Source: Blastomonas fulva
Lineage (GTDB): Bacteria > Pseudomonadota > Alphaproteobacteria > Sphingomonadales > Sphingomonadaceae
Length of the DNA stretch: 64,000 nt
Direction of reading: 5' to 3'
Assembly (NCBI RefSeq): GCF_003431825.1
Contig: NZ_CP020083.1
Span: forward strand, 1-64,000
In this document: positions 26,933 to 32,289 of the stretch, piece after piece
Numbering within the stretch: the stretch's first letter is position 1
Layout: the number at the start of each line of letters is the position of its first letter
The notes under the pieces: model-generated
What the model saw: the letters and a program-made list of their open reading frames with translations, nothing else
The model's database searches: none
Told to the model about the DNA's origin: nothing
Position numbers and translations under genes: made by a program

Positions 26933-26967
26933 AAAAAGCCGCTCCGGGCAACCGGGGCGGTTTTTTT
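26933..26967 (+). terminator. Rho-independent terminator after the phasin gene
   Basis: The stem CCGCTCCGG / CCGGGGCGG with a GCAA loop is preceded by an A-run and followed by seven T residues. A weaker hairpin, CCACCGCC-TTCAA-CGGCGGTCGG, lies just upstream. The terminator also marks the left boundary of the AT-rich island. Confidence 0.9.
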
Positions 26968-27050
26968 GTTGTGGTGCATATGGAGCGCTGCGAACATCAC
27001 CCGCAAGCTGAGGAGAACCTACTCAGACACGAGTGCCCCATATAAACGAC

Positions 27051-27078
27051 TTGCATCATCACATCGCGAGTGTAATTT
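27051..27078 (+). promoter_or_regulatory. Possible promoter of the island cassette
   Basis: TTGCAT at 27051-27056 and TAATTT at 27073-27078 are 16 bases apart and 35 bases ahead of the dam-like start. Downstream CTCGAGCTTTGAG is partly palindromic. The match is modest and the region is AT-rich, so chance similarity is possible. Confidence 0.3.
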
Positions 27079-27112
27079 CCAAATCTCGAGCTTTGAGTGA
27101 AAATGAGACATA

Positions 27113-27904
27113 ATGAAGCCATTTATCAAATGGGCCGGCGGCAAACGGTGGCTAGCCGACCATGAGTTATTTAATAATCTAGCTTATACAGGAAAGTATT
27201 TAGAGCCTTTTTTTGGCGGGGGAGCTATGTACTTTCATCTAAAACCGGAAAGATCTATAGTTTCTGACGTTAACACTCGACTGATTGAAGCGTATAGAGC
27301 AGTCAGAAATGATCCCGAGATAGTTATAAGCCTTTTAAAAGATCATCAAATATTGCATTCTAAAGAATATTACTATAAAATTCGCAAGACATCATTTGAC
27401 GATCTTAACCGACGCGCTGCACAATTTATCTATCTTAATAGAACGTGCTGGAACGGATTGTACCGCGAAAATCTGGCTGGCGAATTTAACGTTCCAATTG
27501 GTACAAAAAAATTGATTTTTGATCCTACGGAAGATTTTATCGCCATATCAAAACAGTTGAAAAAGTCAGAAATACTCAGCTGCGACTTTGAGCAAACCAT
27601 AGATCTGGCCGAAGCCGGTGATTTTGTTTTCTGCGATCCGCCATATACTACTGCACACAATCTTAACGGCTTTGTGAAGTATAACCAGAATATTTTCAGT
27701 TGGAAGGATCAGGTTCGGTTACGTGATGCCGCAGTCCGAGCAATGCGACGTGGAGCAATTGTCGTAATCACAAACGCGGATCATCCCTCGCTGCATGAGT
27801 TGTATCAGGCTGCTGAAAAGATAGACACGATGGAAAGGGCGTCCGTGATAAGTGGGAAATCTACGGGTCGCGGTATGACTTCTGAAATATTGGTCACACT
27901 CTGA
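27113..27904 (+). CDS. Dam-family (D12 class) DNA adenine-N6 methyltransferase
   Basis: The 263-residue protein shows the D12-class order: KWAGGKR at residues 6-12, SAM-binding PFFGGGAM at 32-39, SDVN at 51-54, LNRTCWNGLYREN at 108-120, and catalytic DPPY at 175-178. The specificity (GATC or other) cannot be read. The length is normal and no frameshift is seen. The stop and the next start share TGATG. No restriction endonuclease gene adjoins it, so it is an orphan methylase or part of an unusual modification module. Codon usage marks it as acquired. Confidence 0.92.
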   Translation: MKPFIKWAGGKRWLADHELFNNLAYTGKYLEPFFGGGAMYFHLKPERSIVSDVNTRLIEAYRAVRNDPEIVISLLKDHQILHSKEYYYKIRKTSFDDLNRRAAQFIYLNRTCWNGLYRENLAGEFNVPIGTKKLIFDPTEDFIAISKQLKKSEILSCDFEQTIDLAEAGDFVFCDPPYTTAHNLNGFVKYNQNIFSWKDQVRLRDAAVRAMRRGAIVVITNADHPSLHELYQAAEKIDTMERASVISGKSTGRGMTSEILVTL

Positions 27905-28419
27905 TGTATTGGCTAAAGCAACTTATGTCGCATGGCGATGCTCACTGGCGAGCGTTTTGCGAGGTGGCGTGCGTGTGCTTGGCATCTTTTGTACCGTTGG
28001 GGGTAAGCCTATTTGCCCAAACCGCACGAACTGCAAACGGGACAGGTTCTATCTGGCCGACGCTAGATATGATGTTTGGCAAGGGACAGATGTACTTAAT
28101 GGCCTACGCTTTGTTTGGTACGATATTTTGGCTAGCTTTTTGGAGCGGCGATAAGGAACCCCATAAAGCACGAAGAGCACTCGGCACTATTGCTCTTTTA
28201 GCCATCGCTCCCGTGGTAGGCGGGTTTGCAGTCGACCCCACGTTTTCAAATGTTACAAATACAAATGTGGTGGTTTTTGGTTATTATTTCTATGCAGTTT
28301 TCGCGGTTATATATTACCTTCTCTTATTTTATGTCGAAATTGACCCTCCAACGCCAAATGATGTTTTTAAGCGAGAAACTGGTACCCTGATCAATGAATA
28401 CAAAAGGCTGGAAAAATGA
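27904..28419 (+). CDS. Small four-helix membrane protein of unknown function
   Basis: The 171-residue protein has four predicted transmembrane helices, at about residues 18-38, 62-81, 92-110 and 121-144. It has a short N-terminus and a charged C-terminal tail (DPPTPNDVFKRETGTLINEYKRLEK) of about 25 residues. No motif was recognised. It is sandwiched by overlaps (TGATG with the methylase, ATGA with the DGQHR gene), so it should be co-expressed with both. A membrane effector is one idea, by analogy with small membrane toxins of defence cassettes; this is speculative. Confidence 0.8.
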   Translation: MYWLKQLMSHGDAHWRAFCEVACVCLASFVPLGVSLFAQTARTANGTGSIWPTLDMMFGKGQMYLMAYALFGTIFWLAFWSGDKEPHKARRALGTIALLAIAPVVGGFAVDPTFSNVTNTNVVVFGYYFYAVFAVIYYLLLFYVEIDPPTPNDVFKRETGTLINEYKRLEK

Positions 28420-29555
28420 GCAGAACCAAGCTCCAGCTTCAGTATCAAGAAATTCAACAGGAGATCGGGACTTTTTACTCGACAGTGATCTCCGCGCAAA
28501 AGTTATTAGAGATTTGCACCTTTGATTTCAGAAAAATTTCTGAAAATGACGGAATAAAAGAATTTCTTGGCATCCAAAGGCCACTAAAAATGGACCGAGT
28601 TCGAGAAATACAAAAGTTTATTCGGACTAGCGACGGTTGCTTTCCGACTTCGATAGTAATATCTGTTGACGAACGATGCGCAACTCTTATCCCAGAGTCC
28701 CATGAATTAGTTCTTCACTCCTATGAGGACGCCGTTGATGCCGAAATAGTTATTCCTTTTCGAGGTATAGCTACAATAATTGATGGTCAACATAGACTAA
28801 AAGCATTTGAGAATACCTCAATTGACTGGGGGCTGTCCGTCAATATTTTTGTCGGAATAGATGAAGGCACCCAGGCGAGCATTTTTTCTAAAGTTAATTT
28901 AGCGCAAACCAAGGTGAATAAAAGTCTTGTTTATGACCTGTTTGCGCTCGACAAAGGTCGTAGCCCAGAAAAGACGTGTCATGAGATCGTAGTCGCACTG
29001 AACAGTATTCCCGAAAGCCCGTTTTATGAACGGATCAAGCGGCTGGGTTCTGCCACAGATGGTATTTTTGGGGAGACACTATCGCAAGCAACCGTTGTGA
29101 AGGGTATATTACCGTATATTACAAAGGATCCGATGACGGACCGAGACATCGGCAAACGAATTGGAGTATTTCCGGATCGCGGAGCAGTTGATTTTGAACG
29201 ACGGATATTTTACCCCTTCTTTCAGAAGACGACTGCGGATGCTGAAATACTAGCAATATTGATAAATTACTTTTCTGCCGTGCAAGATAGGTGGCCGATT
29301 GCGTGGAACAACACGGGAAAAGGAGCAATCCTTAGTAGAACAAATGGATTTAATGGGCTAATTAGATTTCTGAGGGATGTTTATTTAACAGAAACCAGCA
29401 CTCCGGTGGTGATAAGCAAAGAAAGGTTTCATCGAGTATTTTCTCGGAGCACGTTGACAGACGAGCAGTTCAATCCAAATGTCTTTCCACCCGGCTCTAG
29501 TGGCGCTGCAGAGCTATACCGGCAGCTATGCGACACGACTGGTATCAAAGTGTGA
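28416..29555 (+). CDS. DGQHR-domain (DndB-like) protein
   Basis: The 379-residue protein carries the exact DGQHR motif at residues 123-127 (IATIIDGQHRLKAFE), followed by QASIFSKVNLAQTKVN at 153-168, the arrangement of the DGQHR/DndB superfamily, which is distantly ParB-like. Known members include DndB of DNA phosphorothioate clusters and DpdB of 7-deazaguanine DNA clusters. Neither cluster is present here. Residues 180-379 show no domain I know. The start overlaps the membrane-protein stop by ATGA. It probably binds or senses DNA modification; this is an inference from the family. Confidence 0.85.
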   Translation: MSRTKLQLQYQEIQQEIGTFYSTVISAQKLLEICTFDFRKISENDGIKEFLGIQRPLKMDRVREIQKFIRTSDGCFPTSIVISVDERCATLIPESHELVLHSYEDAVDAEIVIPFRGIATIIDGQHRLKAFENTSIDWGLSVNIFVGIDEGTQASIFSKVNLAQTKVNKSLVYDLFALDKGRSPEKTCHEIVVALNSIPESPFYERIKRLGSATDGIFGETLSQATVVKGILPYITKDPMTDRDIGKRIGVFPDRGAVDFERRIFYPFFQKTTADAEILAILINYFSAVQDRWPIAWNNTGKGAILSRTNGFNGLIRFLRDVYLTETSTPVVISKERFHRVFSRSTLTDEQFNPNVFPPGSSGAAELYRQLCDTTGIKV

Positions 29556-29749
29556 ATATTTTATAGAGGCGTTGGCTACGTTACTAATCGCAGATTTTAC
29601 TCAGTCCAATGAAACCGCTGGGGGTTGGTGAATTTAGGGGACTTGGACGAAAGCCTGAATAGCTTATCTTCCCAGTAACTACCGAATGGTGTTCCATGAC
29701 ATTCCTTCCGGTGAAGCGATGATTGCGACAGTAAGGTTGACCTTCCCCC

Positions 29750-32289
29750 TCACAACTGCCGCAAAGCCTGCGCAGGCCTCGCCGCCAGCACCGGTAGCGA
29801 TCCGGCCAGCCCCAGCCCCAATGTCAGCAGAGCGCCTCCGCCCAGAGTCGCCAGCACAACGCCCCAGTCGGGCTGCCAGCCGAAGCTGAAGATCTGCGTG
29901 ATCACATACCAGGCAGCAGTCACCCCCAGTCCCAATGCGACCACCGCCAGCAGCGCGGCCAGCAACCCGTATTCCAGCGCCTGCGCGGACAATATCTGCC
30001 GACGCGTTGCGCCCAGCGTCTTGAGGATCACGCTGTCATAGATCCGCGCCTGGCGGCTGGCGGCGATCGCGCCGATTAGCACCGCTATCCCTGAAAGGAT
30101 CGCGATCGATCCGGCGGCGGCGATGGCGGTGGCGATCTGGGTGAGGATCGTCGAGACCTGCCCGATGACATCGCGCACCTCGATCACCGTGGCCGAGCCG
30201 AAGCCCGCGAGCACCGCCTTGGACACCGCGCGCTCCTTGATGTCTGCGTCCGCCATGCCCTTGAGCGAGACGGTCGCGGCAAGGTTGTGCGGCGCATCCC
30301 TGAGCGTGTTGGGGCTGAACACCATCACATAATTGAAACCCATCGTGTCCCAGTTGATCTGGCGCAGCGAAGCGATTTTCGCGGTGAACTCGCGTCCGAG
30401 CAGGCTGACGGTGAGCATGTCGCCGACCTTGAGGTCGAGCGTCTGCGCCATCTCCTTGTCGACCGAAACCAGCGGCGGGCCGTCATAGCCCTTGGGCCAC
30501 CATGTTCCCTCGATCAGTTCGGAGCCTTCGGGCAGCGTTTCGGCATAGGTGAGGCCGCGCTCGCCGCGCAGCACCCAGGCGTTGTCGGGGATATCCTTAA
30601 GGTCGGCGACGCGGATGTTCTTGTAGCCGGTGATCGTCCCGCGCAGCGAGGGTACGGTGTTGACCGCAGCGCCCGGAGCGGCGTTTTCGACCAGCTGGCG
30701 GAACTGATCCGCGCCCGTCACCGGGACATCGAGCACGAACAGATTGGGTGCCTCCTTGGGCACGTTGCGGGTGATCTCGTTGGTGAGGCTGGTCTGCATG
30801 CCCGCCAGGATCACGAACAATGTGAGTCCCAGCCCCAGGGCCACCACCAGTTGCCCGGTCTGCGCGCCGGGGCGGTGCAGGTTGGCGAGTGCCAGCCGCA
30901 AAAGCGGCGCCTTGGGGCGCGGCAGGCGCGAGGCCGTCCAGCGGATTGCCCAGCCGATGCCTGCGAGCATCAGCAGCACCCCGGTCGCCGCCGCCATGAA
31001 CCAGGCAGAGAACACCGCCTCGCGCGCGGTGACCAGTGCGAGCAGCACGATCGCGGCAATGCCTGCACCCACCGCGATGAGCGTCGCACGGTCGGGCCAG
31101 CGGTTGCCCTCGACCAGCGAACGGAACAGCCCCGCCGCCGGAATGTGCCGCGCGCGCGCCAGCGGCGGCAACGCGAAGATGAACGCGATCAGCAGGCCGT
31201 ACACTGAGCTGACCACCAAGGGCAGCGGGTGGATGGCAAAGCCGGGCTTCACCGGCAGGATGTCGCCTGCCGCCGCGATGATCGCAGGCGGGATCAGCGC
31301 GCCTGCCACAAGCCCGCCCAGAATGACCAGCGCCGAGACCGCGAGGATCTGCACCAGATAGATGCGCAGGATATCGCCCGAGCCCGCGCCCAGGATCTTG
31401 AGCGTGGCGATGCCCTGCCGCTTGGTGGCGAGGTAGGACGCAACGCCGTTGCCCACGCCGATCCCGGCGATCACCAGCGCCGCGAGCCCGACCAGCGAGA
31501 GGAACTGCCCCATCCGCTCGATAAAGCGCGAGGTGCCCGGCGCGCCGCGATCACGGTCGCGCATCTCGAGCCCGGCCTCGGGGAACTCGGCCTTGATCCG
31601 CTCGATCGATGCCACCGGATCGGCGAGAGGGCCGACCTTCACCCGGTATTTGGCCTCGTACATGCTGCCCGGCTGGATCAGCCCGGTGCGCTGGATGCCG
31701 AGGTCGGAAACAAGCGCGACGGGGCCGAGCGTGAAGCCCTCGCCCAGCCGGTCGGGCTCATCGGTGATGATGCCGCGGATGGTGAACTGCGCCTCGCCAA
31801 AGCGGATGGCGTCGCCGGGCTTGAGGTCGAGACGGTCGGCCAGCCCCGCGCCGATCACTGTGCTTTGCGGATCGAGCGGGCCATAGGTGCCCTGCTGCAG
31901 CGTCAGCGTGCCATAGAGCGGATAGTCATAGTCCACCCCCTTCAGCTCGGCGAGGATTGCATCGGGGCCGGCGCCCCCTCCGATATCCGGTGCGCGCGGG
32001 CCGGTGCGCTGCGCCATCGCCTGCATGCGCACGGTCTCGGACACGGTGCCTTCGCGCTCGAACGCAGCCAGTTCGGCTTCGCTCGCCATGCGCTGCGACA
32101 TCGTAGCCTCGAAATCGCCGCCCAGGATCACCTGCCCGCGCTGCGACAGCTCGCCGGTGATCGAGGCGGTGAGGCTGCCGATGGTCGCCAATGTCGCGAC
32201 GCCCAGGAACAGGCAGACGATCAGCAGGCGAAGGCCCCGGAAGCGCCCCGACAGGTCACGCCGCGCGATCCGCCAGATCTGCGCCCAGG

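Follow-up and report, generated by a model that had tools for sequence, protein, structure and literature searches.

The window analysed here comprises the first 64,000 nucleotides (forward strand) of contig NZ_CP020083.1 of Blastomonas fulva (Sphingomonadaceae; assembly GCF_003431825.1). Positions 27113-29555 of it hold a cassette of three forward-strand open reading frames, encoding in this order a Dam-type DNA methyltransferase, a small four-helix membrane protein (4TM) and a DGQHR-domain protein (Table 1). Gene junctions read from the sequence are TGATG between the first and second genes and ATGA between the second and third. The GC content of the cassette is 0.434, versus 0.655 and 0.656 for its two flanks and a mean of 0.656 (standard deviation 0.020, minimum 0.600) for 282 other segments of 2443 bases, while GC at third codon positions amounts to 0.39-0.44 in the cassette genes versus 0.78-0.88 in six flanking ones. 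These values agree with a first-pass annotation, made by a model from the letters alone, that described an AT-rich cassette of deviating codon use whose genes overlap by 1-4 bases. Its further statement that no nuclease, integrase or Dnd partner is adjacent holds for the present locus, whose flanks are common to congeners and whose genome contains a single DGQHR match and no match to the DpnII nuclease (PF04556), but not for the family, relatives of the 4TM and DGQHR genes being found next to Dnd genes and nucleases. Neither DndC, DndD nor DndE lies beside the cassette, the inserted segment having room for the three genes only between shared flanks (Dnd genes were not sought elsewhere in the genome), and no phage or plasmid genes were seen inside that segment.

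Table 1. Features of the cassette and its insertion site, in positions of the window.
Feature	Coordinates	Strand	Evidence or remark
Terminator-like stem-loop with T-run, behind a phasin-like gene	26950..26962	+	variable segment has its left edge right behind the stem-loop
Variable (inserted) hotspot segment of the present genome	26972..29744	.	blastn similarity breaks at 26967-26971 and 29745-29750 in 8/8 relatives
Dam/DpnM-type N6-adenine DNA methyltransferase, 263 amino acids, DPPY at residues 175-178	27113..27904	+	TIGR00571
Four-helix membrane protein (4TM), 171 amino acids, unnamed family, 1-base overlap with dam	27904..28419	+	
DGQHR-domain protein, 379 amino acids, DndB/DpdB relative, DGQHR at residues 123-127, 4-base overlap with the 4TM gene	28416..29555	+	

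The product of the first gene exceeds the cut-offs of the TIGR00571 dam model (230.7 versus 114.85 bits) and of Pfam D12 (153.7 versus 22), and its nearest solved structure is that of DpnM (2dpm, E 2.9e-50), followed by that of E. coli Dam. CDPPY occupies residues 174-178 and FFGGG, in the FxGxG region, residues 33-37. Among aligned cassette Dams, D-P-P-Y, R118 and P128 are present in 61/61 and N114 in 60/61. Conserved in the cassette Dam are the positions that align with N120, R124 and P134 of E. coli Dam, which we take to have a role in recognition. Family membership and conserved residues thus suggest that the enzyme would be a GATC methylase. A housekeeping role was considered and rejected, the TIGR00571 cut-off being exceeded in two of nine genomes of the genus, in both cases at the cassette site, with weaker matches in four congeners. 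No nuclease family was recognised among the three cassette genes in Pfam, NCBIfam, PADLOC or PHROGs.

The second gene product has no family at E<0.01, its best E values being 0.036 in Pfam, 0.12 in NCBIfam, 0.014 in PADLOC and 0.24 in PHROGs, and 104 members of the 4TM family gave scattered weak matches to Pfam (best E 1.4e-4, at most four members per family). Structure prediction, suggested earlier as a check, yielded an AlphaFold model (mean predicted local distance difference test, pLDDT, 89.1; predicted template modelling score 0.80) with helices at 11-28/30-42, 62-80, 88-110, 120-145 and 151-170, that is, four membrane-type helices plus a C-terminal one, the first being interrupted at residue 29, a little ahead of P31. 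Hydropathy predicts three transmembrane (TM) segments at a threshold of 1.6 and four at 1.2. The most frequent residues over 77 locus rows are P31 (87%), G61 (78%) and E (49%) or Q (29%) at position 62, with S126 (65%, G in the present protein) and A17, E20 and S28 (48% each) also frequent.

The third gene product passes the cut-offs of the DGQHR-domain model TIGR03187 (187.7 versus 58.85 bits) and of Pfam DndB, PF14072 (43.6 versus 29.1). The DGQHR motif is invariant over 76 alignment rows, all of which match TIGR04172 (Dnd-associated DGQHR protein 1) at E<=1e-10. The present protein nevertheless misses the equivalog cut-offs of both TIGR04172 (184.8 bits versus 450) and DpdB (77.7 versus 300). 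It was therefore not accepted as a Dnd or Dpd remnant, Dam-4TM-DGQHR units moreover recurring across phyla. Sequence searches found no solved structural relative. For relatives, placement in the ParB/sulfiredoxin (Srx) fold and probable nucleotide binding are reported (PMC4619093, PMC12704722; all papers are cited here from excerpts), and a DndB-like protein binds ATP and GTP (PMC12704722).

Searching with a profile of near relatives of the DGQHR protein gave 84 confirmed loci, of which 80 named ones were kept, and a membrane-protein gene lies directly 5' of the DGQHR gene in 77 of these. Under a fixed rule (110-300 amino acids, at least two predicted TM segments, gap of -130 to +60), such a gene was found in 77 of the 78 loci whose upstream sequence exceeds 350 bases. 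Of the other genes in the same loci that encode 200 amino acids or more, 3 of 575 are preceded by one, and chance gene order was rejected on this contrast. The sole miss (L046) has 411 bases before its contig end, L017 and L030 being cut closer still. Both genes overlap in 62 of 77 pairs, overlap lengths being rough because gene starts were set mechanically (first ATG, GTG or TTG); the greedy gene map can also hide genes, as with the 4TM gene of L157, recovered from the sequence. Among 398 sampled genomes of the phylum, congeners included, twelve DGQHR matches reached E<=1e-15. The five at E<=1e-50 (the present genome, G065, L155, L156 and, by eye from the sequence, L157) all have an upstream membrane gene, and none was seen directly upstream in the other seven. 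A scan of viral sequences, in which copies are under-counted, gave at least 18 contigs with a DGQHR match; six of the 18 listed (L084-L089) have the upstream membrane gene, the other twelve encoding distant DGQHR proteins of 21-30% identity. As a separate observation, L163 and L164 hold distant DGQHR-like proteins (E ~1e-17) in similar-looking gene runs, without a membrane-protein gene immediately 5' of them; these may be additional DGQHR systems that await characterisation.

Evolutionary distances over 61 loci correlate strongly between 4TM and DGQHR (r=0.86, permutation maximum 0.13) and weakly between Dam and DGQHR (0.27, maximum 0.16) or Dam and 4TM (0.32, maximum 0.22); therefore the pair is a tight unit and Dam a looser companion. 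Adjacency, overlap and co-divergence show genomically that 4TM and DGQHR form one unit, and physical contact between both proteins may be inferred from it. The compact horizontally moved module of three genes that had been proposed stands as regards compactness and movement, but its tight core is the pair, the methylase being exchangeable (Dam, MT-A70, N6/N4 methylase, Dnd) and tracking it weakly.

Mere analogy among the membrane proteins of different loci was rejected by hhalign, which gave 89-99% between the present group and six others (alphaproteobacterial Dam, betaproteobacterial Dam, Acidisoma-type, Bacteroidota Dam, BglII and Dnd) versus at most 0.9% for ten unrelated TM proteins, single sequences serving as these controls. 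Single family members often score low as well, with medians of 1.5-26% and 16-44% of them above 50.

Partner classes of the pair were assigned by tblastn (E<=1e-6, within 5.5 kb) using queries that come partly from the same loci, and a DNA-modification gene was found in 75 of the 80 named loci. One Dam query (Dam_31) contained a stop, but the Dam of L031 had been identified independently. Loci with Dam and none of the other queried partners number 43, those containing DpnII 9 and Dnd loci 8; five combine Dam with an Hjc-DGQHR-HEPN protein, three have BglII, two MT-A70 only, two Dam with HerA, two Dam with a DpnA-like protein and one an N6/N4 methylase. The remaining five have none, but three of these (L028, L030 and L046) are short or cut. 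Dam is present in 59 loci, upstream and on the same strand in 51. A Pfam scan of 30 neighbouring proteins, which may miss other kinds of nuclease, confirmed DpnII (L055, L058, L059, L067), BglII (L063), MT-A70 (L009, L039) and GmrSD (L064); in the Dnd locus L076 the only partners seen are an ATPase resembling DndD and a protein weakly matching HerA. On a tree of 82 DGQHR proteins (ten phylum-level labels), partner class changes 20 times, with a shuffled mean of 33.9 and a possible minimum of 9; partner classes are clustered on the tree, yet have been repeatedly exchanged.

Recognition sites of the DpnII and BglII/BstYI families contain GATC. Because these nucleases, the classical type II ones seen, and one Dnd system concern GATC sites, the associations suggest that the pair may be tied to GATC. 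The Dnd system is that of Bermanella, which marks GATC (PMC10470545) and whose locus may or may not carry the pair.

Such company also bears on the idea that the pair, instead of being an effector, would tune the modification enzyme, with defence provided by separate nucleases. By analogy, DndB, described as an ATP-dependent negative regulator (PMC10853773), reportedly represses dnd genes and limits modification, and the DpnII and BglII loci indeed carry their own nucleases. This explanation appears unlikely, since the 43 loci with Dam and no other queried partner would show no effector, dnd loci have DndB in addition to the DGQHR protein of the pair (read from the sequence in L157), and a membrane protein would be an odd regulator.

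Other arrangements were observed around these genes. Five loci (L006:5069-7399, L037:5051-7327, L054:4941-7241, L065:1625-3925 and L160:4526-6811) encode, directly after Dam, a protein of ~760 amino acids combining a weakly supported Hjc-like nuclease region, a DGQHR/DndB domain and a HEPN domain (Pfam having been applied to L006 only), and the 4TM-DGQHR pair follows in four of them; this protein is possibly a second DGQHR-based effector. L025 and L060 have a HerA-like ATPase and a second conserved protein of no known family near Dam-4TM-DGQHR.

The cassette occupies a hotspot, the interval between a phasin-like gene and an ABC-transporter permease (26971-29745; L115-L122, L141, L142). The right flank is present in all eight other genomes of the genus examined, similarity breaks at the same two edges in each (Table 1), and all eight carry other cargo there. 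Five of them have PADLOC matches to known defence models, and one holds a second, divergent Dam-4TM-DGQHR cassette, so that the defence-island setting suggested earlier as a check was found. The cargo includes both components of PD-Lambda-5, A as a fragment (E 1.2e-84) and B (1.4e-115), a protein matching NsnA (1e-63) and accompanied by a HEPN protein, proteins resembling AriA/AriB (9.5e-26 and 8.2e-12), dCTP deaminase (8.1e-155) and DzbA (3.4e-103); some segments also contain genes unlike defence genes. In the divergent cassette Dam is 45% and DGQHR 36% identical to the present proteins, and its 4TM matches the family profile at 97.5%. Finding two divergent versions of the same system at a single site, in the company of known defence genes, constitutes the strongest single argument for defence. 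Also observed at this site were an apparently shortened PD-Lambda-5 A with a transposase-like open reading frame between it and component B (L116:2758-6036), and a 617-amino-acid SEC-C-motif protein, the sole cargo of L118 (L118:3456-5309), which may be an uncharacterised defence gene.

Homologues of all three genes co-occur as Dam-4TM-DGQHR units across phyla, far beyond close relatives. Within the order, the 4TM profile matches in 2 of 396 genomes, and the near-relative DGQHR profile reaches E<=1e-40 in 1 of 385 genomes of the class. From 31 plasmid records 11 were examined, and the genes upstream of DGQHR were checked in six of these (L124-L129), each having 3-4 TM segments. The pair accompanies MT-A70 and BglII/BstYI on plasmid pRiA4, BglII/BstYI and Dam on plasmids of Acinetobacter, and Dam on a Roseateles plasmid. 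A related cassette (L086) adjoins an integrase, and two others (L088, L089) lie near phage tail, head and primase genes. These plasmid and prophage copies, together with the contrast in GC with the flanks, sustain the horizontal movement proposed from the window.

Carriage on plasmids and prophages, operon order and gene overlap would equally suit an addiction module, with Dam as antidote and 4TM-DGQHR as poison, in which cells losing the cassette would be killed and defence would be a by-product of self-maintenance; restriction-modification (R-M) systems are known to behave in this way. Dam, however, is downstream or divergent in 8 of the 59 named loci that have it, it is replaced by chemically different systems, and the hotspot company is one of defence genes, which make such a module distinctly unlikely. 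The same carriage might indicate a passenger of mobile elements, whose methylase would shield the DNA of the element from host nucleases while the pair served the element's life cycle and not host defence. This is very improbable, since the pair is found with modification systems of many kinds, Dnd loci among them, and with Dam across phyla, and the present copy is chromosomal, in a segment free of visible phage or plasmid genes.

Considering (i) the linkage of the pair, (ii) its association with DNA marking, (iii) the hotspot setting, (iv) the non-housekeeping nature of Dam, (v) mobility, and (vi) the retention of DPPY in all aligned cassette Dams, a function in defence appears highly plausible, and the cassette is probably an anti-phage defence module so far undescribed. 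In the full mechanism that we propose, with a probability of roughly 0.4, it would act against invaders, most likely phages, by marking self. Judging from its family and conserved residues, Dam would methylate the GATC sites of the host; the DGQHR protein, forming a unit with 4TM, would survey the modification state of DNA. On contact with unmodified DNA, for instance that of a phage entering the cell, this unit would switch the membrane protein to a pore-like or otherwise membrane-damaging state, so that the infected cell is stopped, and the same pair would be reused by other marking systems (DpnII, BglII, MT-A70, Dnd). Regarding the separate steps, chances for and against the sensing of unmodified DNA seem evenly poised, and the membrane protein as executing effector stays a tentative assignment, slightly short of even.

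Alternatively, 4TM might anchor the DGQHR protein at the inner membrane, where injected unmodified DNA would be bound or nicked and the infected cell would survive. The analogy is with Kiwa, in which the membrane protein KwaA, forming tetramers, works with the DNA-binding partner KwaB to block phage DNA at the injection site (PMC12904381); nicking of DNA is possible for members of the ParB/Srx superfamily (PMC12839542), and the near-complete linkage of the 4TM and DGQHR genes would fit as well. No Kiwa model is listed at E<=1 for either protein (presence of Kiwa models in the library was not checked), the kept P31, G61 and E/Q62 could also suit a channel, and tethering without killing seems rather doubtful. 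We lean to the effector reading over tethering.

Several points weigh against the proposed self-marking module. Two of the eight hotspot genomes have no convincing defence gene, L118 giving weak matches and L115 not having been scanned with PADLOC, and the 4TM model has no clear match to a solved fold. In hhalign the present 4TM group scores no more than 25% against the DpnII group of Bacteroidota, 16% against the Melainabacteria group and 0.17% against a two-sequence Dnd2 group (L074, L076); weakly linked groups join the rest through other groups only (90-96%), so that homology is indirect for some. L022 and L048 have no modification gene despite ample flank. The GATC link could stem from the commonness of Dam and DpnII and from partner queries drawn from the loci themselves. 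Some loci encode a nuclease of their own, which shows that the pair is not just a replacement for one, and, as Dam tracks it weakly, coevolution does not imply sensing of the particular mark of Dam.

More broadly, though we regard it as speculative, 4TM-DGQHR might be an unrecognised portable membrane immune receptor or effector that reads how DNA is modified at or around GATC and is plugged into N6-methyladenine systems (Dam, DpnII, BglII/BstYI with MT-A70) and phosphorothioate systems (Dnd, of which one or more mark GATC), as a nuclease-free membrane arm of restriction immunity. If this were true, a simple methylase would be coupled to a membrane effector in place of a nuclease, and one effector pair would serve several DNA-marking chemistries. 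It would also account for a class of Dam methylases that look like orphans on mobile DNA, provide the "phosphorothioation-associated DGQHR protein 1" family with a partner and a role, and offer a system of two to three genes in which the reading of DNA marks by ParB-fold proteins could be studied.

Among the matches listed for open-licence PubMed Central (PMC) papers, a scope outside which lie preprints, supplements and most subscription papers, no description of the trio, or of a membrane protein paired with a DGQHR protein, was found, consistent with the initial statement that no named system has these three parts. The excerpts of the papers cited above and of PMC3226654, PMC5608340 and PMC12707154 describe neither. 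PMC10853773 surveys the gene surroundings of dnd loci, and its main text has membrane-type terms in two places, neither of them on such a gene.

Closest in arrangement are dnd loci with an annotated "DGQHR protein 1" (TIGR04172), in which the upstream neighbour has ~170-185 amino acids and, in the two checked (L128, L129), four predicted TM segments; the present DGQHR protein differs in falling far below the cut-off of that model and in being partnered by Dam instead of Dnd genes. The ParB-like proteins DndB and DpdB, which are regulators or ATPases in the Dnd and Dpd systems, share the DGQHR motif family and the Pfam DndB domain with the third gene (PMC4619093), although the DpdB equivalog cut-off is missed and DndB coexists with the DGQHR protein of the pair. 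DpnII-type R-M resembles the cassette in that the cassette Dam is nearest DpnM and that the pair adjoins a DpnII-family nuclease in nine named loci, but here the genome has no DpnII and the cassette no nuclease of known family. PD-Lambda-5 is an anti-phage system that, like the cassette, has a D12 methylase, a copy lying at the same hotspot in a congener; we know of no membrane gene of the 4TM family among its parts. By our reading of the sequence, its A piece contains a DGNRR motif resembling DGQHR; the DGQHR protein gives no match to PD-Lambda-5_A at E<=1, and the B model is weakly matched by Dam (E 4e-9). Its discoverers termed it a compacted prophage system joining R-M and abortive infection (PMC9519451). 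Kiwa, finally, has no methylase as described and no detected sequence relation to the cassette, but it resembles the pair in consisting of two genes, for a small membrane protein and a partner acting on DNA (PMC12904381), and comparison of the 4TM structure leaves a fold shared with it possible.

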